Source: a virus
DNA: 64,000 nucleotides
Direction: 5' to 3' (one strand)
Virus record (IMG/VR): IMGVR_UViG_3300045747_000158
Location: 1-64,000 of that record
The notes below the pieces were generated by a model that saw only the letters and a program-made list of their open reading frames with translations, was not told the DNA's origin and ran no database searches. A program made the position numbers and the translations under genes. Position 1 is the stretch's first letter; each line of letters opens with the position of its first letter. Shown here piece by piece: positions 7,946 to 53,313 of this stretch.

Positions 7946-8147
7946 TATAGATACAGTCTATAAGGTAGGCAATAGAACCTTCTCTACTTACCTTGAAGCT
8001 AAAAAAGAGGAGGAGGTACAATCAATACTGGCCTGTTGTTATGGTTATCGAGATAACTTAGTATCAGATAATGGTAGTACTAATGCTCGATCATTGTTGT
8101 ATAGATTATTAGAGCACCACGACATTCAACCAAAGAGGAAAGGATAA
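7938..8147 (+). CDS. Small unknown protein
   Basis: 69 residues from ATG at 7938; upstream in-frame starts are not better placed. Contains NRTFSTYLEAKKEEE, which resembles short lysis- or host-control peptides only in composition, and a Cys pair (ACCYG). Its stop overlaps the start of the GGCT-like gene. Confidence 0.5.
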   Translation: MINIDTVYKVGNRTFSTYLEAKKEEEVQSILACCYGYRDNLVSDNGSTNARSLLYRLLEHHDIQPKRKG

Positions 8148-8563
8148 TGAGTAAATGTAGTGTAGCAGTCTACGGAACCCTTAAGAAAACCCAGTCCAAT
8201 CATGGACTACTATCAGGTTCCAAGTTTGTAGGGGTAGGTACTACACCAGCCTCCTACTCCCTGCTTGAGCTTGGGTCATTCCCTGGAGCTATCTGGGGTA
8301 ATCATCAGTTAATGGTTGAGGTATATGAGGTTGATGATCGGATACTGGCTAGGTTAGATAGATTAGAAGGTCATCCTTCATTCTATGAACGTCATTTAAT
8401 TCAGGTTAAAATGGATGATGAAGGAGAAGGAAGTGAGGTTAAGGAGGCATGGCTTTACACTATAGCTCACCTTGGCTCTAACTACTCTCATCGTCCTGAG
8501 TGTGTTGATAAAGACCATCTTAATCGAATTGATTGGAGTTACAAACGTGCGAATAATTGGTAA
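8147..8563 (+). CDS. Gamma-glutamylcyclotransferase-like (GGCT/AIG2) protein
   Basis: 138 residues. Has the family's N-terminal VYGTLKK motif (residues 8-14), the SFPGAIWG strand-turn and the conserved Glu context DRLEGHPSFYER (residues 71-82) that supplies the catalytic Glu. Known members act on gamma-glutamyl amines or peptides, or deprotect gamma-glutamyl groups as BtrG does. It begins a run of peptide-ligase genes (8147-15824), so it probably cuts or recycles a gamma-linked product of those ligases (inference). TAATG overlap with the upstream gene; one ACTACTATCAG copy lies inside. Confidence 0.85.
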   Translation: MSKCSVAVYGTLKKTQSNHGLLSGSKFVGVGTTPASYSLLELGSFPGAIWGNHQLMVEVYEVDDRILARLDRLEGHPSFYERHLIQVKMDDEGEGSEVKEAWLYTIAHLGSNYSHRPECVDKDHLNRIDWSYKRANNW

Positions 8564-8654
8564 GTTAAAGGTTGTAGGTTACTTTCTAACCTTAGCCACC
8601 TTAGCATTAGTGGTAAGCCTAAGGGATCTATATCAGGCTCTTAAGGAGGTATGA
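8547..8654 (+). CDS. Small membrane peptide, GTG start
   Basis: 35 residues from GTG at 8547 with TTGGAG eight bases upstream. One hydrophobic helix (VVGYFLTLATLALVVSL) and a charged tail. Overlaps the end of the GGCT-like gene in another frame. Function unknown. Confidence 0.45.
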   Translation: MRIIGKLKVVGYFLTLATLALVVSLRDLYQALKEV

Positions 8655-8797
8655 TGCTTCACAAGTTCTTATTGTTCATAACAAAACCCTTAGTTAAGAG
8701 AAGGATAGCTACATATTGCTACCCTTACTCTGAAGCTATGTACTTTAATCTCAGGGAGTATTTACATGATATTAGTACAACACCAAAAATACTCTAA
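8651..8797 (+). CDS. Small unknown protein
   Basis: 48 residues with AAGGAGGT next to ATG at 8651 and a second ATG right after. Basic, aromatic (KRRIATYCYPYSEAMYF). Its 3' end overlaps the ATP-grasp gene by 32 bases. Unknown. Confidence 0.45.
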   Translation: MMLHKFLLFITKPLVKRRIATYCYPYSEAMYFNLREYLHDISTTPKIL

Positions 8798-9590
8798 AGG
8801 TCTAAAGACTAACGGTCCTTTGGATGTATCAGGTACTCGTTTAGCTCAAGCCTTAGATATAAGGGTATACACGCCACGTATTAAATGTAGGAATAGCAAT
8901 AGATCAATCATTAATTATGGCTGCTCCTATATACCTTGGCTTAGCCCTAATCAAGTGATCTACAATAAACCTGAGGCTATCATTAAAGCCTGTAACAAAA
9001 TAGCTACCTTTGCTCAATTAACACAAAGTGAAGTGCCTATTCCCCACTGGACTCACTTAAAAATTGCTGCAGAATTATGGTTTGAAGTACCTAAGGCTAT
9101 AGTATTTTGCAGAACAATCATTAATGGTTCTAAGGGTAAGGGGATTGTAGTAGCTCGAAAGATAGAAGAGTTGGTAGATGCACCTCTCTATACCCTATAC
9201 ATCCCCAAGAATGAGGAATATAGAGTACACGTAGCCTTCAATAAAGCTATTCATATCCAAAAGAAATTGAAACTTACCCCTCAGGAATTAGAGAATAGAG
9301 GTATCACTGACACTAACCCCTTAGTTCGTAATAGCTCTAATGGGTATGTCTTCTCTTCTAATCTCACCTTTGAATACGAAGAGGATGGTAGCTATACAGA
9401 CACTAAATACTTCTGGCTTACTGAGTATGCAATCAAAGCTGTTCGTAGCTTAGGTTTAGATTTTGGTGCTGTAGATTTGATTGTAGGTAAAGATGGTAAA
9501 TGCTATGTACTTGAAGTTAATACCGCGCCTGCTTTAGAGGAGCCCACGCTCTCTAAATATAAGAATGCTATAAATGAAAATATCTCATGA
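8766..9590 (+). CDS. ATP-grasp ligase (RimK/peptide-ligase type)
   Basis: 274 residues; GGGAG lies eight bases upstream of ATG. The central Gly-rich loop is GSKGKGIVVA (about residues 122-131); the C-terminal metal/ATP site is VDLIVGKDGKCYVLEVNT with the family's E-x-N. Known relatives join a carboxylate to an amine through an acyl-phosphate using ATP. Placed between a GGCT-like protein and two amidoligases, it most likely adds an amino acid or amine to a peptide or glutamyl substrate. The 5' part before residue 60 is divergent and probably gives substrate specificity. Substrate unknown. Confidence 0.85.
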   Translation: MILVQHQKYSKGLKTNGPLDVSGTRLAQALDIRVYTPRIKCRNSNRSIINYGCSYIPWLSPNQVIYNKPEAIIKACNKIATFAQLTQSEVPIPHWTHLKIAAELWFEVPKAIVFCRTIINGSKGKGIVVARKIEELVDAPLYTLYIPKNEEYRVHVAFNKAIHIQKKLKLTPQELENRGITDTNPLVRNSSNGYVFSSNLTFEYEEDGSYTDTKYFWLTEYAIKAVRSLGLDFGAVDLIVGKDGKCYVLEVNTAPALEEPTLSKYKNAINENIS

Positions 9591-10173
9591 AGAGTTATTA
9601 AATACGCTTAATTACGATAGTGAAAGTGGTATATTTACTTGGTTAATTAAGCCTTGCAGTAATGTTATAATTAACTCAATTGCTGGATGTATTCGAGGTG
9701 ATGGATATATCTCTATAAGATTTAATAAAACTACTTACTTAGCTCATAGATTAGCATGGTTTTACCACTTTGGTATATGGCCTGAATTAAACATAGATCA
9801 CATAGATACTATTAAACACCATAACTTTATAAGTAATTTAAGGGAGTGTACTCAATCAGAAAATAATCAAAACCAAACAAAGGCATCAATTAGAAGTAAG
9901 AGTGGATTTCTAGGAGTATCTTATGATAAAAGATATAATAGTTATCTAGCAAGAATAGAGATAGATAATAAAAGATTTTATCTTGGAAGTTACAAAACGC
10001 CTGAAGAAGCACATCAAGTTTATCTAAAAGCAAAGCAAGAATTACACCCCTATTCCAACTGTTTCCTAGGAGGAAATAATGAACCCAATCGTAAAAGTAT
10101 TTATCTATCAAGTTGTAGTGGGAGTTGTAATGCTCCTTATCTTATTAGCAATCAAAGCGGTGGCTTAACATGA
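9574..10173 (+). CDS. HNH homing-type endonuclease with AP2 domain (1)
   Basis: 199 residues. N-terminal LNYDSESGIFTW and YLAHRLAWFY lead into the HNH core (LNIDHIDTIKHHNFISNLR, residues about 68-86), then a C-terminal AP2-like DNA-binding domain (GFLGVSYDK to FYLGSYKTPEEAHQVY). Free-standing nucleases of this kind spread by homing. It overlaps the ATP-grasp end by 17 bases. The last 30 or so residues read in another frame through a small membrane-protein gene (10079-10168), so this C-terminal extension may not be functional. Confidence 0.85.
   Translation: MKISHEELLNTLNYDSESGIFTWLIKPCSNVIINSIAGCIRGDGYISIRFNKTTYLAHRLAWFYHFGIWPELNIDHIDTIKHHNFISNLRECTQSENNQNQTKASIRSKSGFLGVSYDKRYNSYLARIEIDNKRFYLGSYKTPEEAHQVYLKAKQELHPYSNCFLGGNNEPNRKSIYLSSCSGSCNAPYLISNQSGGLT
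10079..10168 (+). CDS. Tiny membrane protein inside the HNH reading frame
   Basis: 29 residues from ATG at 10079 with a perfect TAGGAGGAA site. Almost entirely hydrophobic (IYQVVVGVVMLLILLAIKAVA). It lies in a different frame from the HNH gene that runs over it, and its ribosome site is far better than expected by chance. Probably the original gene at this spot. Confidence 0.5.
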   Translation: MNPIVKVFIYQVVVGVVMLLILLAIKAVA

Positions 10174-10670
10174 AAGAAAGAATATCTCATGAGAGATTGT
10201 TAGAACTATTAGATTATAATAGTGACTCTGGGATATTTACTAGAAGAATAACAGCAGGTGGTCAAGTAATAGGTGATAGAGTAGGTGCTATTACTACTAA
10301 AGGGTATTTATATACTTCTGTAGACACTAGAAAGTATATGTGCCACGTATTAGCTTGGTTCTATCACTATAAAGCATGGCCTACTAATCAAATAGATCAT
10401 ATAGATCGAGTTAAAACTCACAATTGGATAAGTAATTTACAGGATGTGACACAAAATGTTAATCAACATAATAGAATTATCCCTAGAAAAGATAATAAAA
10501 GTGGTTTTATAGGCGTATCTTTCTATCCTAAACTTAATAAATTTGCGGCAAAGATAAGGGTTAATAAAATGGGTATACATCTGGGTTATCATAATACACC
10601 CGAAGAAGCACATCAAGCATACTTAAATGCTAAAGCAATATATCATCCATCATTTACACTAGAGGTATAA
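10170..10670 (+). CDS. HNH homing-type endonuclease with AP2 domain (2)
   Basis: 166 residues, paralogous to the preceding nuclease. HNH core INQ-IDHIDRVKTHNWISNLQ-DVTQNVNQ (about residues 71-95, with the DH, N and N of the motif) followed by an AP2-like domain (GFIGVSFYPK to GIHLGYHNTPEEAHQAY). It starts inside the stop of the first nuclease (ATGA) with no clear ribosome site, so it depends on coupling. Likely an independent or duplicated homing insertion between ATP-grasp and the next ligase. Confidence 0.85.
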   Translation: MKERISHERLLELLDYNSDSGIFTRRITAGGQVIGDRVGAITTKGYLYTSVDTRKYMCHVLAWFYHYKAWPTNQIDHIDRVKTHNWISNLQDVTQNVNQHNRIIPRKDNKSGFIGVSFYPKLNKFAAKIRVNKMGIHLGYHNTPEEAHQAYLNAKAIYHPSFTLEV

Positions 10671-10672
10671 CA

Positions 10673-11509
10673 ATGAATACTAAGTTTTTAACAGTGGGTT
10701 CGGACCCAGAAAGTTTTTTACGCAACTCTAAAGGTGAATTGGTGAGTGCCATAGGTTTAATTCCAGGCACTAAATCATCTCCCTTTAAAACAACTAATGG
10801 TAGCATTCAACATGATAACATACTTGCAGAATTTAATTCTAGACCATCCAATACTCTTCTTGAATTTATTAATAATCATAGACTTATCATTGGCGATCTT
10901 AATAGTATACTCAATCCTTTGGATCTTAAGCTAGACTTTATAGCAAGTGCTATGTGTTCAGATGAACTACTATCAGATCCAATAGCTAAGGTAGCAGGTT
11001 GTGATCCTGATTATAACGCATGGCTTTTATGCAGGAACAATCCTGTCTCTTATACCTATACTAGTCTGAGGGCTGCTGGTGGACATGTACACATTGCTTT
11101 TGACCAATCCGTTAACAATCCTAAAGCCCGTATTGATTTTGTTAGGGCTCTTGACATGGTACTGGGCGTTCCAAGTGTTGTTGTCGATAATGATAATGCC
11201 AGAAGAACAGTTTATGGTAAAGCGGGTTCATTCCGCCCAAAAGATACTATCAATTTCAATGATGATATTGGCCCTGACCCTTATGATGGTGTAGAGTATC
11301 GTACCCTCTCTAACTTCTGGTTACGCTCTGAGTCCCTCATGGAGTTCGTCTGGAATGGAGTTGAAAGAGTTTACAATAATCTTGAAGAATTGAGTGAAAG
11401 GGCAGAGTTCTATAAAGATGCAATCATTGATATTATCAATACTGGCAATTCAGCTAAGGCAGATTTATTCTGCAGAGTAGAAGGTATCTATGCTCCAGGC
11501 ACAATTTGA
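10673..11509 (+). CDS. COOH-NH2 ligase, type 2 (amidoligase superfamily)
   Basis: 278 residues with glutamine-synthetase-like fold motifs in order: VGSDPESFL (residues 7-15), LAEFNSRPS (about 50), AAGGHVHIAF (about 138-147) and VEYRTLSNFWL (about 205-215). These supply the Glu, His and Arg residues that bind metal-ATP and activate a carboxylate. The family is predicted to form amide bonds between carboxyl and amino groups of peptides or amino acids. It neighbours ATP-grasp, a second ligase and GAT-II, which supports a multi-step peptide or amide synthesis. Exact substrate unknown. Confidence 0.82.
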   Translation: MNTKFLTVGSDPESFLRNSKGELVSAIGLIPGTKSSPFKTTNGSIQHDNILAEFNSRPSNTLLEFINNHRLIIGDLNSILNPLDLKLDFIASAMCSDELLSDPIAKVAGCDPDYNAWLLCRNNPVSYTYTSLRAAGGHVHIAFDQSVNNPKARIDFVRALDMVLGVPSVVVDNDNARRTVYGKAGSFRPKDTINFNDDIGPDPYDGVEYRTLSNFWLRSESLMEFVWNGVERVYNNLEELSERAEFYKDAIIDIINTGNSAKADLFCRVEGIYAPGTI

Positions 11510-12533
11510 GTCACTATCTGGCCCACAACTCAAGTTTTTCTCTAAGTATCTTAGAAGTACCCTAAGGCTTTGGGACTTTAGCTCTGATCAGATAGATGCT
11601 ATAAAGTGGTATGGAAATATAGGTATGACTGAAGCCTTACCTCCTCTTTGGTTTCTTGGGACGAATGCATATATTAATTCAGGTATATCTATCTCTAGTA
11701 ATCCACCTATAACCCCAACCCCCTCACCTTATAACCCCATGACCCCTATAGACATAGCAGCTCTCTTTGATGATGAGCCTGAATATGAAGATGGGGGGAA
11801 TGAAGATGGGGGGAATGAAGATGGGGATGAAGAGGATGTTTATGGATCATCCCCTCAGCCCTTAGATGCTAATAGAGAAACCTCTCATGATCTACAGGTA
11901 AAATATTTACATACCTATGGCCTATTAGAAGGTAAGCCAGTATATATTACAGATATTGTTTCTAGTTCTGCTTCCCTTAAAGGTTATAAAATCTATACTC
12001 ATACCCTTGGGGAGGATGGTAGTTTTATAGCCAGTGGTATCTCCCAAGATATAAATGATTTTAATATGGTAATCCCTAAACTTGGGTACATCAATCACTC
12101 TAACCTTACTATCTACTTAGAGCGTAAGCATAAGAAGAATAGTCCTAGCAGGTACAGAAGGGGATTAAGGGCTGATACCCTTATTATTACCAATCCATCA
12201 GCTGCTGAGTATAAGGAAGCCTATTCCTCTTCTGATCCATATAGTACCTATGATTATGGTGAAGAAAAAGTTTTACAAAAGATATTATACTCTCTTTTCT
12301 TTCCTGTTCATTACCCTTATCCTCAGGCCCTTGCATCTCTCTTAGAGTTTAAGAGATTGAGTTGTGCCATATCAGCCACCTTCTCGCTATCTCTTGACTT
12401 TAAGACTAACAAGATTGTATTATATCGCAATCAGTTTGCCATTGGTCATTACAATCAGAAAGCATTAGGGATTATTTTAACAACAGATCTATTTAAAGAT
12501 GAGGTCATAGCATCGGGAGTTATAGTCAAATGA
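11490..12533 (+). CDS. Unknown protein of the ligase cluster
   Basis: 347 residues, overlapping the upstream ligase by 20 bases; GAAGG precedes ATG at 11490. Three parts: an N-terminal helical domain (residues 1-70), a Pro-rich then acidic linker with a tandem EDGGN repeat (about 75-120), and a C-terminal globular domain (about 130-347) with RYRRGLRADTLIITNP. No cysteine-based or ATP site recognised. The position between two ligases and the flexible linker suggest a scaffold, carrier or substrate-recognition protein (inference). Confidence 0.7.
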   Translation: MLQAQFESLSGPQLKFFSKYLRSTLRLWDFSSDQIDAIKWYGNIGMTEALPPLWFLGTNAYINSGISISSNPPITPTPSPYNPMTPIDIAALFDDEPEYEDGGNEDGGNEDGDEEDVYGSSPQPLDANRETSHDLQVKYLHTYGLLEGKPVYITDIVSSSASLKGYKIYTHTLGEDGSFIASGISQDINDFNMVIPKLGYINHSNLTIYLERKHKKNSPSRYRRGLRADTLIITNPSAAEYKEAYSSSDPYSTYDYGEEKVLQKILYSLFFPVHYPYPQALASLLEFKRLSCAISATFSLSLDFKTNKIVLYRNQFAIGHYNQKALGIILTTDLFKDEVIASGVIVK

Positions 12534-13507
12534 CAGAGAAAATTGCAAGACTCTTAGGTAAACAAATAGACGCTAAGCGTTATATGGAGTCTACAAAGTT
12601 AGTGAGTAGTACAATAGGGGTAGGTGTTGAGCTGGAGCTTGAGAACATTGAGTATATGCAGCATTTTCCTGGTATGGGTTATCCTAATATCTTTGGGTTA
12701 TGGAAGGCAGTACATGATGGTAGCTTAAGGGAGGGTACTGAGTACACTTTTAATGGTCCATTGGTTGGTATTAATATAGCTGATGCCCTAGATGTTATGC
12801 AGGAGTTCTTGGGGGTATATCGACGCTATGAGTTACCTGCTAAGATAACAGATAGATGTTCAGTACACGTTCACCTAGATGTATCTGATTTAGATAAAGA
12901 TCAATTAAATAATCTAATTCAGGTATACTATTTAGTTGAAAGAATACTATTTCAGTACATCAACCCCCTTCGTATCAAAAACAATTATTGTAGGGCTCTA
13001 ACTGACTCCTCTTTCAAGTATACCCTTAAGAATCTCTTGAAGAATCAAAGTTCCTATGATCTCATCCATATCATTAAGAATGAATGTGATAAGTACTCAG
13101 CCTTAAATGTGCTGCCTGTATCTCACTTTGGTAGTGTAGAATTTCGGCATCATCATGGTACTCTAGAGATGAATAGGATTTTGGAGTGGATTAATATTAT
13201 TATGAGTATTAAGGTAACATCCCTTAACTATCCTATTGAAGAGCTATTAGGTATATACAAAGAGAAGGGTAGTCTGGATTTATTACAAACTATCTTCCAA
13301 GGCTCACTACTATCAGATCTTGAAATCATTAATTCACTTTTTGATTATGATCGTTTAGTGTTTATGGGTGTATCAGACCTAAAAGAAATACATAATATGG
13401 ATGAGCTCAAAGCTTTGAATACTGCCAATGCTCGAGGTAGAAAGAGTAAGAACAGAATCTTCTTAGATTCCTTCAAAAAAGAAAACAATTTAATGGGAAG
13501 TGAATAA
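12530..13507 (+). CDS. Amidoligase enzyme (Amidoligase_2 type)
   Basis: 325 residues. Motifs of the family appear in order: VGVELELEN (residues 26-34), VHDGSLREGTEYTFNGPL (about 64-81), SVHVHLDVS (about 107-115) and GSVEFRHHHGTL (about 202-213). They match the Glu-Glu, Asp-Gly-Ser, His-x-His and Arg-His positions that build the ATP/metal site. The ATGA overlap with the upstream gene and abutting GAT-II gene imply coordinated synthesis. It probably uses glutamyl or ammonia groups prepared by GAT-II. Contains an ACTACTATCAG copy at 13306. Confidence 0.85.
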   Translation: MTEKIARLLGKQIDAKRYMESTKLVSSTIGVGVELELENIEYMQHFPGMGYPNIFGLWKAVHDGSLREGTEYTFNGPLVGINIADALDVMQEFLGVYRRYELPAKITDRCSVHVHLDVSDLDKDQLNNLIQVYYLVERILFQYINPLRIKNNYCRALTDSSFKYTLKNLLKNQSSYDLIHIIKNECDKYSALNVLPVSHFGSVEFRHHHGTLEMNRILEWINIIMSIKVTSLNYPIEELLGIYKEKGSLDLLQTIFQGSLLSDLEIINSLFDYDRLVFMGVSDLKEIHNMDELKALNTANARGRKSKNRIFLDSFKKENNLMGSE

Positions 13508-14872
13508 ATGTGCGGATTAATCGGCGTTATAAACAGAGAAAAGGTGATAGGAAACTCTGAGAAACTCTTAAAATTCTTTTATCAAGGGTTATATTGTGAT
13601 GCTGTTAGAGGTCAACATGGTACTGGTATATGCGCTGTAGAGGATGATGGAACCTATAGAATGTTTAAGAGGGCATTAGCCTCAGCAGATTTCATAGAGC
13701 TGTCAACTGCCAAGAAGATTATGAGTGACAATAACAATGTGTTTCTGCTAGGTCATAATCGACATGCAACCTATGGGCAACATACCGACGATAATTCTCA
13801 TCCATTCGTCAATGATAACATTACTCTTTTCCATAATGGTACTCTCACCTCTCACTCTTCCCTTAATCCTGGTAAGACCTTTAGTGTAGACTCCAATGCA
13901 ATCTCCTATCTCCTCTCTAATACTGATGATACCATCACCGATCTAGAGAAGTTGAGGGGCGCATTTGCTTTAGTCTGGTATGATGATATTGATGAGTCTC
14001 TTAACTTTGCTCGTAACAATGATAGAACCCTATTCTTAGCAACTATCAAAAACTCTCAGTCCATACTCTATGCTTCTGAAAAGGGTATGATTGAGTGGTT
14101 AGCCCAAAGAAATAGTATTGAGATAGATGAGATCAAACCATTGGCAGCAGGTATCCTACTCTCTTTCCCTTTAGATCCTACTAGAAAAGCTAAGTCCAAG
14201 ACCTTTAAGATCTATACTGCACCAATAACTAATAACTACTACCAAAAAACCTACTTTTATCCTGGTCCAGCTGTGGTGATTGATGGGGTTAAGGTCAATG
14301 ATGTTATTATAGTTGACAATATAACTTGGCAGCCTTATAATGGTGGTATGCCTGTTAAAGATGTAGTTCGCTATGGTTATCTGAAGTGTGAGTATAAGAA
14401 GGGTGTGTGCTTTCATGTTGCAGGCACTTCTGAATCAGAGTCTAAAAAGTATTTGGGTAAAATATATAGTCTACAGGTACAATCAGTAACATCAGCCAAT
14501 GCAGGTTATGGTAAATTGTTGGAAGAGATTACAGAAAACGATTTATTGGAATATTCTCTCCTTAAAATGGAAAAGGAAAAGGTGATAGACATACAATCAA
14601 AAAAGGAAGAAGAAAAGGTAGAAGACGTAAAAAAGCTGGGTTATACCCCACTGACTAAAGATGAATTGGATATTGATTCAGAGGATGAGGGCTATATAAT
14701 GGTACAAGGTCCGGGAGGTAAGTTTATCTCTGAACCTGATTTTTTAAAAAAAGTTCATGGTGGGTGCAGTAATTGTTCGGATGATATTATCGTGGATGAT
14801 GCCCCAAACATAAAGTGGGACTATGAGAATAGCCCGTTCTGTTCAGATTGTGCAGCATTTTATAATTTATAA
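13508..14872 (+). CDS. Class II glutamine amidotransferase (Ntn-hydrolase) with C-terminal zinc ribbon
   Basis: 454 residues beginning MCGLIGV: Cys2 becomes the N-terminal nucleophile after Met removal. Other GAT-II marks: RGQHGTGI (residues 34-41), GHNRHATYG (about 79-87), FHNGTL (about 107-112). This domain frees ammonia from glutamine. No synthetase domain of the asparagine-synthetase or GlmS kind follows; instead there is a long charged segment and a Cys4 pair (CSNC ... CSDC) near the end. In this cluster it probably supplies ammonia or glutamyl groups to the adjacent amidoligases. Confidence 0.88.
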   Translation: MCGLIGVINREKVIGNSEKLLKFFYQGLYCDAVRGQHGTGICAVEDDGTYRMFKRALASADFIELSTAKKIMSDNNNVFLLGHNRHATYGQHTDDNSHPFVNDNITLFHNGTLTSHSSLNPGKTFSVDSNAISYLLSNTDDTITDLEKLRGAFALVWYDDIDESLNFARNNDRTLFLATIKNSQSILYASEKGMIEWLAQRNSIEIDEIKPLAAGILLSFPLDPTRKAKSKTFKIYTAPITNNYYQKTYFYPGPAVVIDGVKVNDVIIVDNITWQPYNGGMPVKDVVRYGYLKCEYKKGVCFHVAGTSESESKKYLGKIYSLQVQSVTSANAGYGKLLEEITENDLLEYSLLKMEKEKVIDIQSKKEEEKVEDVKKLGYTPLTKDELDIDSEDEGYIMVQGPGGKFISEPDFLKKVHGGCSNCSDDIIVDDAPNIKWDYENSPFCSDCAAFYNL

Positions 14873-14885
14873 TTTAGGAAAGACA

Positions 14886-15824
14886 ATGTTAAAACAAGTA
14901 AAATTAAAAGTAATAACTGAAGACAACTATTACAACCAAATCTCCCAGACCTCTGAGATTCACTGGTCCTTTTTAAACAGGGTAAAGGGAGATAAATGGA
15001 GCTTCCAAGAGCTCTTTTTGAAGGTTAAATGTAGAGAGTACCTTGGGGATTTAGTGGTTTGTGGTAACTTGGATATTGATGTGCCAATGATCTATGGTAT
15101 GTCCTTAAGGAAGAAAAGAATCTCTATCAAGGAGACACTACTATCAGTATCCCTGTATCAAGAGAGTGTGCCTACTTTCATTAAGAACATGAAGTATCTG
15201 CGTAGAATTGAGAAATCTATGGGTATCCCAATGACTCGTATTTACTCCACTCAACATCAAGGTGCTTTTGATACTCGTTTGGTATTGATAGGTGATAAAA
15301 AGTGGGTATCATCTCCCCTCCTCATCTCTATTTATTCCCTGATAATTAGAGCAATGACCTATTCACTTAGAGGCAATTCATTCAAGAGCCATATCAAAGC
15401 ATTGGTCATTAGTTCTTGGAGTTATGGCAATGATGCTCAAGCTTTCAAGACTATAGATAGAAATGGAGTAGATCTGATTCACCTCCTCCAAAATATTGAT
15501 AAGGTAATCTCTGATAATCCATTAACCGGATTAAATGATGAGAATCTTCGTGCTGATAAACGCCTTTTAACTGCTGAATATCAAAATGTTGTGTTAAACT
15601 ATGAGGGCCACAGTCATTCTTGGTGTATGTCAAACAATCATAGTCAGCATGGCATCATCAACTTTGTAGATGGTGTGAACTATACCAACTCTAGAGGCCA
15701 TAGAAAAAATTATGGTATTAATAGTAGTTGGGTTAATAACTATATCCAGCTTATTAAAGATGAAAAAGAACTAATTTCCAATCCAGTTGTCCAACCTATT
15801 CCGGCTTATAGTTTAGAGTGGTAG
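14886..15824 (+). CDS. Unknown protein ending the ligase cluster
   Basis: 312 residues from ATG at 14886, chosen for AGGAAAG upstream; an earlier in-frame start would overlap the GAT-II gene. Contains His/Ser-rich stretches (YEGHSHSWCMSNNHSQHG, about residues 240-257) and RIYSTQHQGAFDTRLVLIG (about 117-135), which could form a metal site. No family recognised. The tight placement after GAT-II and before the replication genes suggests it belongs to the amide-ligase system. ACTACTATCAG at 15137 lies within. Confidence 0.7.
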   Translation: MLKQVKLKVITEDNYYNQISQTSEIHWSFLNRVKGDKWSFQELFLKVKCREYLGDLVVCGNLDIDVPMIYGMSLRKKRISIKETLLSVSLYQESVPTFIKNMKYLRRIEKSMGIPMTRIYSTQHQGAFDTRLVLIGDKKWVSSPLLISIYSLIIRAMTYSLRGNSFKSHIKALVISSWSYGNDAQAFKTIDRNGVDLIHLLQNIDKVISDNPLTGLNDENLRADKRLLTAEYQNVVLNYEGHSHSWCMSNNHSQHGIINFVDGVNYTNSRGHRKNYGINSSWVNNYIQLIKDEKELISNPVVQPIPAYSLEW

Positions 15825-15848: not shown

Positions 15849-17501
15849 ATGTCAGAGAAAGAGAGTATTTATATTGAAAATGTAGGCTGTCCTGAGTGTG
15901 GCAGCAGTGATGCTGTAGGTGTTTACAAAAGGGATGATGGAAGTATCTACGGGAATTGTTTTAGTTGTGGAAAGTATATACCGGAGCCTTATGGAGCTGA
16001 AGAACCTGAAGTAATTGAAGAAGATGTAGAGTTTGAAGAGGAGGAAATTATCCCTGAGATACCCTCTTCCTTCAACAAACTTATGTCTCGTGGAATATCT
16101 AAAGAGGTCTGCGAGAAATATGGAGTTAAATCTATCCTTAATAAAGCTGGAATTGATGAGGTTCACTTTTATCCTCACTACAACAAAACAGGAGAGCGCT
16201 TTGATTGTAAAAGGGTAGTGGAAGGCAAGAAGTTTAGTTGGTCGGGCAAACCTAAAGACTTAGAGTTCTTTGGTCAGAGACTATGTGGTTCAGGTGGCAA
16301 GATGATACTGGTCACTGAGGGGGTATTAGATGCTCTAGCAGCTACAGAAATGTTGGCTAAGTGTGATAAGCAGTATAGAGTTTGTAGTATCATTAATGGT
16401 GCATCAGCTGCCATAAAAGACTTCAAGAACAACTATGAATGGATTAATAGCTTTGAGTCTATCTTCCTAGCCTTTGATCAGGATGAACCAGGCCAGAAGC
16501 ATATCCAGGAAATCTCTAATCTCTTTAGTCCCAATAAAGTTAAGAACATAATCTATTCTGAGAATGATCCTAATGATATGTTGGTTAGAGGTAAGCACAA
16601 AGAGTTTCTGCAGGCTATATTCTCTGCTAAAGAGTCTAGACCTACAGGTATTGTAAGTGTTGATGATATCTTTGATGAAGCTATTAAACCGCCAGTTATG
16701 GGCAAGTCATTCCCTTGGCATACCTTAACTGAATGTACCTATGGCTACCGAACTGGTGAGATCTGGGGGGTAGGTGCAGGTTCTGGCTGTGGTAAGACAG
16801 AGTGGTTTAAAGAGATGATTAATCATACCATCTACCATCATAAAGAAGTGGCTGGTGTGATATTCCTGGAAGAACCAGCTGCCAAAACTCTCAAGGTACT
16901 AGCAGGAAAGAGAGTTAACAAACGCTTTCATATTCCTCAGGATAAAGGAGGAGATTGGACAGTAGAAGAATTGGTAGATGGTATTAATGATTTGAAGGGT
17001 AAGGTGTTTCTTTACAATCACTTTGGCTCTAAGGACTGGGAATCCATTAAATCTAAAATTAAATTTATGGTGGTAGGGTTAGGTGTTAAAACTATCTATC
17101 TCGATCACTTAACTGCATTGGTAGCACAGGAAGATAATGAATATAAAGCACTTAATAAACTCATGGAAGAAATGTCTAGCCTTTGTCAAGAGCTTGATTG
17201 TACTATATTTTACGTCAGTCATCTACGTAAAGCGTCTGGCACTCCACATGAAGAAGGGGGAAGGGTTACAGCAGATCAATTTAAAGGAAGTGGAGCAATT
17301 GTCTTCTGGTCTAACTTCCTCATTGGTCTCGAAAGAAACCAGCAAGCTGCAGATGAAGACGAAAGAAATACAACAACTCTCAGAGTTCTTAAAGACCGAA
17401 ATACGGGACTAGCAACTGGTGTAACCTTTGAGTTAAGTTATAACCATGATACTGGTAGATGGATGGAGAAGGATAATGATGAATTTAATGAGGCATTTTA
17501 G
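15849..17501 (+). CDS. Primase-helicase (T7 gp4-like)
   Basis: 550 residues. N-terminal zinc-binding part: CPECG (residues 14-18) with CFSCGKYI (about 37-44). TOPRIM primase core: ILVTEGVLDAL (about 154-164) and FLAFDQDEPGQ. C-terminal DnaB/gp4-type helicase: Walker A GAGSGCGKTEW (about 312-322), VIFLEEPAAKT, Walker B TIYLDHLT (about 414-421) and FYVSHLRK. It unwinds DNA and primes lagging-strand synthesis at the fork with the polymerase at 19556-20917. Slightly smaller than T7 gp4 but all core motifs are present. Confidence 0.93.
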   Translation: MSEKESIYIENVGCPECGSSDAVGVYKRDDGSIYGNCFSCGKYIPEPYGAEEPEVIEEDVEFEEEEIIPEIPSSFNKLMSRGISKEVCEKYGVKSILNKAGIDEVHFYPHYNKTGERFDCKRVVEGKKFSWSGKPKDLEFFGQRLCGSGGKMILVTEGVLDALAATEMLAKCDKQYRVCSIINGASAAIKDFKNNYEWINSFESIFLAFDQDEPGQKHIQEISNLFSPNKVKNIIYSENDPNDMLVRGKHKEFLQAIFSAKESRPTGIVSVDDIFDEAIKPPVMGKSFPWHTLTECTYGYRTGEIWGVGAGSGCGKTEWFKEMINHTIYHHKEVAGVIFLEEPAAKTLKVLAGKRVNKRFHIPQDKGGDWTVEELVDGINDLKGKVFLYNHFGSKDWESIKSKIKFMVVGLGVKTIYLDHLTALVAQEDNEYKALNKLMEEMSSLCQELDCTIFYVSHLRKASGTPHEEGGRVTADQFKGSGAIVFWSNFLIGLERNQQAADEDERNTTTLRVLKDRNTGLATGVTFELSYNHDTGRWMEKDNDEFNEAF

Positions 17502-19383: not shown

Positions 19384-19568
19384 TGAATAGGAGGATAGAG
19401 TGGTTGTTAATGCTTCGAGATCGTTGTTATGATAGATTACATAGGATAAAGGAGGATTATGAATTATATCCAGAAGATCCTCCAATATTTAATCTTGATC
19501 AAACTAAAAAGGATATGGCTAGAATAAAGTGTAAACTCAATCAAGAGCGACAGAAATGGCTACCATAG
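19383..19568 (+). CDS. Small basic helical protein
   Basis: 61 residues, TAATG-coupled. Basic helix (RIEWLLMLRDRCYDRLHRIK) and a C-terminal helix (MARIKCKLNQERQK). It overlaps the polymerase start by 13 bases. It could bridge the separate exonuclease and polymerase, but that is only a positional guess. Confidence 0.5.
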   Translation: MNRRIEWLLMLRDRCYDRLHRIKEDYELYPEDPPIFNLDQTKKDMARIKCKLNQERQKWLP

Positions 19569-21679: not shown

Positions 21680-21856
21680 ATGAGTATAGAAACAACAAAA
21701 GTGAGTAAGTGCAATTGTGATAACCCTGGTCAGGATAAGTTACATGGCACTAAGAATAGAGTATTCAATCAAACCTCAAAGTCCTCTCAGAAGAAAGGTG
21801 AAACTGGGGAATTTCGATGCAGTGTGTGTAACGTAACTGTAAAACTTATTAACTAA
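21680..21856 (+). CDS. Small zinc-ribbon protein
   Basis: 58 residues: CNC near residues 11-13 and CSVC near 47-50 frame a basic Gln/Lys/Ser-rich loop (DKLHGTKNRVFNQTSKSSQK). Small phage proteins with this Cys-x-Cys ... CxxC pattern are common near polymerases. Its TAA overlaps the HNH start. Confidence 0.55.
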   Translation: MSIETTKVSKCNCDNPGQDKLHGTKNRVFNQTSKSSQKKGETGEFRCSVCNVTVKLIN

Positions 21857-22329
21857 TGATAACAGCAGATAGACTAAAAGAACTATTGTACTATGATAGC
21901 TATACTGGAATCTTTACTAGGAAATTAAGAACAGGAAGAACAGTTCATATTGGTGATATTGCTGGTGGAATTGGATCTGATGGTTACATCTCAATTAGTA
22001 TAGACAATGAAAGGTATAGAGCACATAGATTAGCTTGGTTATATTCATATGGACATTGGCCTATAAATCAAATAGATCATATTAATGGTAAGCGAGATGA
22101 TAATAGAATAGATAACTTAAGAGATGTATCTGCTCTAGGTAATGCAAGAAACCAGACTATACCAAAAAGTGGCAGCACTACGGGGTATATAGGTGTCTTT
22201 AAAAAGAGAAATAAATTTATAGCCTGTATAGGCATGAATTATAAAAAGATTCATATAGGCACATTTAGTACAGCTGAAGAAGCTAGTGAAGCCTATCAAT
22301 CTTACAAACAAAAATTACATACAATTTAA
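21856..22329 (+). CDS. HNH homing-type endonuclease with AP2 domain (3)
   Basis: 157 residues. HNH core: INQIDHINGKRDDNRIDNLR (about residues 73-92) with ARNQ following; AP2-like domain GYIGVFKKRNKF to IHIGTFSTAEEASEAY. Shares the layout of the nucleases at 9574 and 10170 but is clearly diverged. Inserted immediately before the SSB gene; a homing role is inferred. Confidence 0.85.
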   Translation: MITADRLKELLYYDSYTGIFTRKLRTGRTVHIGDIAGGIGSDGYISISIDNERYRAHRLAWLYSYGHWPINQIDHINGKRDDNRIDNLRDVSALGNARNQTIPKSGSTTGYIGVFKKRNKFIACIGMNYKKIHIGTFSTAEEASEAYQSYKQKLHTI

Positions 22330-53239: not shown

Positions 53240-53313
53240 TGGCAGATCCTAGGTGACTCGAACACCTAATAGCTCCGTCAAAGGGAGATGTGTTACCATT
53301 ACACTAAGGATCA
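53240..53313 (-). tRNA. tRNA-Gln (anticodon TTG)
   Basis: 74 nt with encoded CCA. Seven-base acceptor arm pairs except U1-U72 (weak first pair is typical of tRNA-Gln recognition); D arm TTAGTGTAATGGTAA; anticodon stem CTCC/GGAG with loop CTTTGAC, anticodon TTG at positions 34-36; T arm AGGTG TTCGAGT CACCT. Lies between scaffold and HNH genes in the late block. Confidence 0.85.

Follow-up and report, generated by a model that had tools for sequence, protein, structure and literature searches.

Several podoviruses carry a set of genes for amide-bond formation, known in the literature as the "peptidoglycan modification cassette" of the phiEco32/LUZ24 type. It was reported in RIO-1/PSA-HP1-like phages, with a list of carriers that includes phiEco32, 7-11, PA11, tf, LUZ24, PaP3 and CW02 (PMC5498523), and described again in phiM6 (PMC6256558) and in a LUZ24-like phage (PMC11945000). 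A change of the cell wall that blocks superinfection has been hypothesized as its function, an idea that PMC10580990 credits to Iyer et al. (2009); for the Planctomycetes phage ZRK32, which has the same gene set, a nutritional role was proposed (PMC10945688). A biochemical test of the cassette, or of a role in the wall, was not found in the accessible literature. Directed evolution of a LUZ24-like phage produced missense changes in the amidoligase and glutamine amidotransferase genes of two evolved lines (PMC11450229), which hints at selection on the cassette.

Here we analyse a locus of this kind, between positions 8147 and 15824 of a 64,000-nucleotide window of viral DNA (positions 1 to 64,000 of IMG/VR virus record IMGVR_UViG_3300045747_000158, 66.8 kb in all). 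An earlier note, made from the letters alone, had proposed that these genes make or remodel a gamma-glutamyl or isopeptide-linked molecule, and had pointed out that similar gene combinations are already described in phages and bacteria. Our preferred reading, to which we give a probability of roughly 0.55, is that the locus is a complete phiEco32-type cassette for amide or peptide synthesis, in which a temporary gamma-glutamyl group would be removed by either a gamma-glutamylamine cyclotransferase-like enzyme (GGACT) or a Peptidase_C26 enzyme (C26).

Relation to described cassettes

Judged by sequence, the gene set is that of the phiEco32/LUZ24-type cassette: a COOH-NH2 ligase type 2, an Amidoligase_2-type ligase, an ATP-grasp ligase, a class II glutamine amidotransferase (GAT-II) and GGACT, a member of the GGCT family, are encoded together in the predicted early region, with two uncharacterized proteins, here called U1 and U2. 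The phiEco32 cassette (gp77-gp88 region; Iyer et al., 2009) likewise holds GGCT, ATP-grasp, GAT-II, Amidoligase_2, U1 (gp85) and COOH-NH2 ligase genes in a single early block adjoining the primase/helicase gene, but differs in gene order, in its longer GAT-II, in having no HNH genes between the ligases, and in carrying gp87 and gp88 as extra uncharacterized genes in place of U2. The LUZ24/tf/UFV-P2 and RIO-1/PSA-HP1 groups share the enzyme set and an uncharacterized gene between the ligases (tf_20; UFV-P2 ORF22), whereas tf_17/tf_18-type proteins stand where the window has U2, and the HNH gene of UFV-P2 sits elsewhere. Among annotated relatives the nearest is MW202615 (Podoviridae isolate ctwe8250, Manatee Spring), which has the same order of GGCT, ATP-grasp, COOH-NH2 ligase, U1, amidoligase, GAT-II and U2, followed by a replication gene, but has neither HNH endonuclease, and its U1 is unannotated. 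PA11/CVT22-type phages (Zobellviridae) share the five-gene core; in contrast to the window they have C26 in the place of GGACT, with the GAT-II gene on the 5' side of the COOH-NH2 ligase gene.

Co-inheritance of the module

Relatives of the COOH-NH2 ligase were found in 315 of 50,697 phage records. The module set recurs in phiEco32, tf, BUCT695, PA11, CVT22, Slicky01, PQ867839 and MW202615. The distant crAss-like phages cr108_1 and phi14:2 have it too, with the genes arranged differently and no free U1. Iterative profiles applied to 57 COOH-NH2 ligase loci detected GAT-II in 55, ATP-grasp in 54, Amidoligase_2 in 53, U1 in 50, GGCT in 18 and U2 in 5; several of the missing-gene cases are contig ends. 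In the reverse test, in which loci were fetched by U1 alone, the amidoligase gene was directly downstream in 29/29, and a COOH-NH2 ligase gene was present in all 26 loci having upstream sequence; these 29 contigs overlap partly with the first set. The co-occurrence in relatives that the earlier note had set as a check is seen from both ends. A search of 84,980 bacterial and archaeal species genomes for an operon of bacterial origin whose neighbouring genes might be informative gave 12 matches only, all on contigs of metagenome-assembled genomes; other module genes are present on 11 of these contigs, and the matches look phage-derived. Together these data support the locus as one co-inherited amide-bond-forming module, and they delineate a core of COOH-NH2_lig and Amidoligase_2 (both of the glutamine-synthetase-like class), ATP-grasp, GAT-II and U1.

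Some cassettes have additional genes. A second ATP-grasp paralogue lies upstream of GAT-II in the IMG/VR loci L051, L057, L058 and many of L059-L085. Slicky01 and Leptolyngbya phage Lbo-JY46, which are unrelated to each other, have NAD-salvage-type genes (PRPP synthetase, nicotinate phosphoribosyltransferase) near the cassette (L010:988-3269 and L093:1-2673).

Proposed removal of a gamma-glutamyl group

The GGCT that the earlier note had placed in the cluster is present here, but it is not universal, because most relatives use a C26 enzyme; GGACT is, on the family assignments, the minority solution. Cassettes of the PA11, CVT22 and crAss types encode a C26 class I amidotransferase (gamma-glutamyl hydrolase family), whose gene in most cases forms the 5' end of the module, and its nucleophile Cys and His-Pro-Glu motif are conserved at 99-100%. 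When 84 whole records were scanned with independent Pfam models, 22 had GGACT only, 55 had C26 only, seven had both and none had neither; the present phage has GGACT, and C26 is absent from its whole 66.8-kb record. Fisher's exact test on this tally gives 1.7e-14, a value uncorrected for kinship among phages that are related and hence not independent. On the ligase tree, C26 changes state at least six times and GGACT 10 times, and GGACT is present in all C26-less records and lineages. Across the 50,697 phage records, tblastn with one query each found C26 in 63 (including a few Listeria and Enterococcus entries, whose cassette status lies outside this count) and GGACT in 114. Both are rare in phages, and this background lies far below the observed frequency, with one or both enzymes in every cassette record. 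The 84 of 84 records argue for gamma-glutamyl removal as an obligatory step of the cassette chemistry. This complementarity was not mentioned in the open-access literature that we found, Iyer et al. (2009) and Hardies et al. (2013) being outside that search; it and the place of U1 as a core component appear to go beyond that literature.

Enzymes that cleave gamma-glutamyl groups, together with a glutaminase, free glutamate and ammonia, and the cassette might accordingly serve as a set of metabolic helpers that recycle glutamine, glutamate and gamma-glutamyl compounds to supply phage nitrogen, as suggested for ZRK32, whose locus (L011) has the same set (PMC10945688). Pure catabolism, however, leaves unexplained why three ATP-consuming ligases and U1 are kept together in distant phages, and we regard this explanation as improbable.

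Catalytic residues and probable site of the chemistry

Residue conservation was scored in alignments of 19-57 relatives, and all five enzymes keep their catalytic residues, in agreement with the families to which the earlier note had assigned them. In GGACT, whose nearest solved structures are YtfP and AIG2-like domain-containing protein 1, Y9-G10-x-L12 and Glu74 are conserved at 100% (19 relatives); with the YGxL motif and the catalytic Glu both in place, the window enzyme is predicted to release 5-oxoproline from a gamma-glutamylamine. The ATP-grasp protein is weak in Pfam (best 2e-4, under cut-offs) and clear in PHROG ('S6 glutaminyl transferase'), and its K78, E151, R153, K167, D237 and E250-x-N252 are at 100% in 57 proteins. 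The COOH-NH2 ligase, to which its family assigns a glutamine-synthetase-like fold, has intact metal and catalytic residues (G9-x-D-P-E13, D48, E53, H138-x-H140 and E208-x-R210 at 96-100%), and the amidoligase retains G32-x-E-x-E36, D63, S65, E71, H113-x-H115 and E204-F-R206 at 98-100%. GAT-II conserves C2, the N-terminal nucleophile already picked out by the earlier note, with R85, T88, N110-G111 and D128; we take the roles of these residues to be those in the glutaminase domain of GlmS, its relative in the PDB (5e-6). Its C-terminus bears a four-cysteine zinc-ribbon-like motif (C420/C423/C445/C448) in 80-85% of relatives.

Module protein sequences, read by eye, contained no evident N-terminal signal or membrane segment, which would place the chemistry probably in the cytosol. 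On the published reading of the same gene set (PMC5498523, PMC6256558, PMC11945000, PMC10580990), the cassette would alter peptidoglycan precursors or side chains and so exclude other phages. The named hosts in phage listings are mostly diderm bacteria, as might suit a role in the wall, but this bias may merely mirror phage sampling. In profile scans, none of the module proteins was recognizable as a muropeptide binder, a relative of Mur ligases or an exported protein; the module adjoins replication genes, and the literature yielded no experiment; we consider an action on peptidoglycan possible but doubtful.

U1 and U2

The gene for U1 sits between the COOH-NH2 ligase and the amidoligase genes in 50/57 loci, and by this measure U1 is a core component of the cassette. 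Members of the family are about 190 residues long and differ greatly in sequence, but share a G-x-x-N ... R-x-P-x-R-x-x-K-x-G-L loop; in the window protein the conserved domain spans approximately residues 131-339, preceded by an N-terminal extension that includes an acidic linker. Thirty of 35 members matched phrog_11055 (function not assigned), and no Pfam family was matched by more than one member, such single matches being at E 0.06 or worse. A direct search of viral contigs with the window U1 gave no matches; its relatives were obtained solely through ligase loci and iterative profiles, for which the broad alignment was too divergent for scanning and a narrower one usable. The predicted structure of a relative from locus L057 (predicted local distance difference test score, pLDDT, 93.5) matched solved structures in Foldseek only through partial SH3-barrel pieces (Kin17, PWWP, EF-P/eIF5A; best E 0.011, template-modelling (TM) score 0.22); among viral models its matches were uncharacterized phage proteins, for example from Salinivibrio phage CW02. 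U1 may be a non-catalytic binding or partner protein. An EF-P-like modified carrier was considered and found unsupported, both because the matches are confined to SH3-barrel pieces and because the conserved loop of U1 has no invariant lysine. In crAss-like and related cassettes (L009, L027, L054, L090-L094), which have no free U1, the amidoligase has an N-terminal extension of about 190 residues; a fusion of U1 found no support, as the hhalign probability was about 0 and Foldseek returned only crAss amidoligases for the extension (a weak model, pLDDT 68).

Another reading draws on RimK, which acts on ribosomal protein S6: a protein, either a host factor or U1 itself, might be the acceptor to which the ATP-grasp and amidoligases join amino acids or a peptide. 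The ATP-grasp belongs to phrog_2599, 'S6 glutaminyl transferase', and U1 is an obligate small partner whose SH3-like pieces resemble KOW/PWWP/EF-P-type domains. Those Foldseek matches are partial, however, U1 shows neither an invariant lysine nor a conserved tail marking an acceptor site, and a small-molecule route accounts at least equally well for a gamma-glutamyl group that can be removed. Protein tagging seems unlikely to us.

The earlier note had counted two large uncharacterized proteins as parts of the cluster, and this holds for U1 but not in general for U2, found in 5/57 loci (close relatives and one weaker case). U2 had one phage match, MW202615 (2e-5), and a direct search of viral contigs with the window protein gave no matches; it is, on this distribution, a lineage-specific neighbour weakly linked to the module. 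The start given for it by the earlier note, at 14886, is correct, with a ribosome-binding-like AGGAAA upstream. A relationship to tf_17/tf_18 was discarded (hhalign probability <1%). One close relative has the U2 family in duplicate, as a tandem pair after GAT-II (L017:8787-10794).

Gene content and borders

Window proteins were scanned with Pfam and PHROG profiles, which recovered the five enzyme families, all in one orientation, at the positions where the earlier note had put them. The locus comprises nine co-oriented open reading frames (ORFs), mostly overlapping or abutting (Table 1).

Table 1. Predicted genes of the cassette and its downstream border, in window coordinates.
Predicted product	Position	Strand	Profile matches
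GGACT/AIG2 gamma-glutamylamine cyclotransferase-like	8147..8563	+	PF06094 2e-22
ATP-grasp ligase, RimK / D-Ala-D-Ala-ligase side of superfamily	8766..9590	+	phrog_2599 3e-53
Free-standing HNH+AP2 homing endonuclease	9574..10173	+	HNH_3 1e-11, AP2 1e-7
Second HNH+AP2 homing endonuclease	10170..10670	+	HNH_3 9e-7, AP2 8e-6
COOH-NH2 ligase type 2, phiEco32 type	10673..11509	+	PF14395 1.6e-8; phrog_3815 7e-64
U1, core protein without assigned function	11490..12533	+	phrog_11055 1e-5; no Pfam family
Amidoligase_2-type ligase	12530..13507	+	PF12224 2e-12
Class II glutamine amidotransferase, GlmS-like glutaminase domain	13508..14872	+	GATase_6 4e-12
U2, lineage-specific protein, weakly linked to module	14886..15824	+	no Pfam family
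DNA primase/helicase, module border	15849..17501	+	DnaB_C, Toprim_2; phrog_239 1e-167

Two HNH+AP2 ORFs had been left out of the gene list of the earlier note. Both are missing from the syntenic MW202615 and are best read as insertions lying outside the pathway. A third HNH endonuclease, of the phrog_99 family like the two in the cassette, lies at 21856-22329.

Placement in the early region is indicated by the primase/helicase gene that borders the module and by a DNA polymerase gene at 19556; a primase/helicase relative is present in the flank of the 57 loci examined. This proximity would also suit a product that decorates nucleotides or phage DNA, but no recognizable base-hypermodification gene was found among the window proteins scanned (an incomplete scan), and we hold such decoration to be very improbable. 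The GAT-II gene contains a perfect sigma-70 consensus (TTGACA-N17-TATAAT, 12/12; 14313-14341, + strand), which precedes U2 by about 540 bp and also lies ahead of the primase/helicase; promoter-like sites across the region were no more frequent than in shuffles. A lone tRNA gene, tRNA-Gln(ttg), lies in the late region (53240-53313, - strand), and the early cassette uses glutamine, possibly a coincidence.

Discussion

In the pathway that we favour, one ligase would gamma-glutamylate a primary amine, the added group serving temporarily for protection or as a carrier, additional ligations driven by ATP would assemble the amide or peptide product with nitrogen from glutamine, and U1 may hold the substrate or the partners. 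The gamma-glutamyl group would finally be removed, by GGACT through cyclization to 5-oxoproline or by C26 through hydrolysis to glutamate; that the target might be a soluble cell-wall precursor is a published guess. The same logic operates in butirosin synthesis (BtrJ/BtrG) and putrescine use (PuuA/PuuD), where a ligase adds gamma-glutamate to an amine and a GGCT-family or C26-family enzyme removes it. We regard these as parallels in working only, from other operons and organisms, and claim no orthology.

Several points weigh against this proposal. Independent swaps between GGACT and C26 are few, about six, and a paired tree-aware test had too few pairs for significance. The 'absence' of a family means a score below the Pfam cut-off and nothing more, many IMG/VR records are fragments, and the 57 loci were fetched via the COOH-NH2 ligase, whose own frequency is set by construction. 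The substrates of C26 and GGACT are assigned by family alone; Lin1909 was the one C26 relative found with a solved structure, and members of the C26 family can also have other amides as substrates. Finally, no substrate, product or phenotype of the cassette is reported in the accessible literature.

Of the chemistry put forward in the earlier note, the gamma-glutamyl and amide part is upheld by a co-inherited amide module and by GGACT or C26 in 84/84 records, while the target that it named (wall, protein or DNA) and a modified or isopeptide-linked product stay conjectural. A bolder version, to which we would give slightly less than an even chance, is that the product is a compound not yet described, made in a pathway confined to phages with a gamma-glutamyl-protected amine as obligatory intermediate. 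In this version GGACT and C26 would have replaced one another some six times along the ligase tree, and U1 would be a non-catalytic subunit or carrier dedicated to the pathway.

Two comparative results appear worth following, U1 as a core component and the complementarity of GGACT and C26. The cassette is present in hundreds of sequenced phages, including ones tried therapeutically against Pseudomonas, and an apparently obligatory gamma-glutamyl removal by two unrelated enzymes, with U1 in the core, would turn a guess about the cell wall into a testable pathway.

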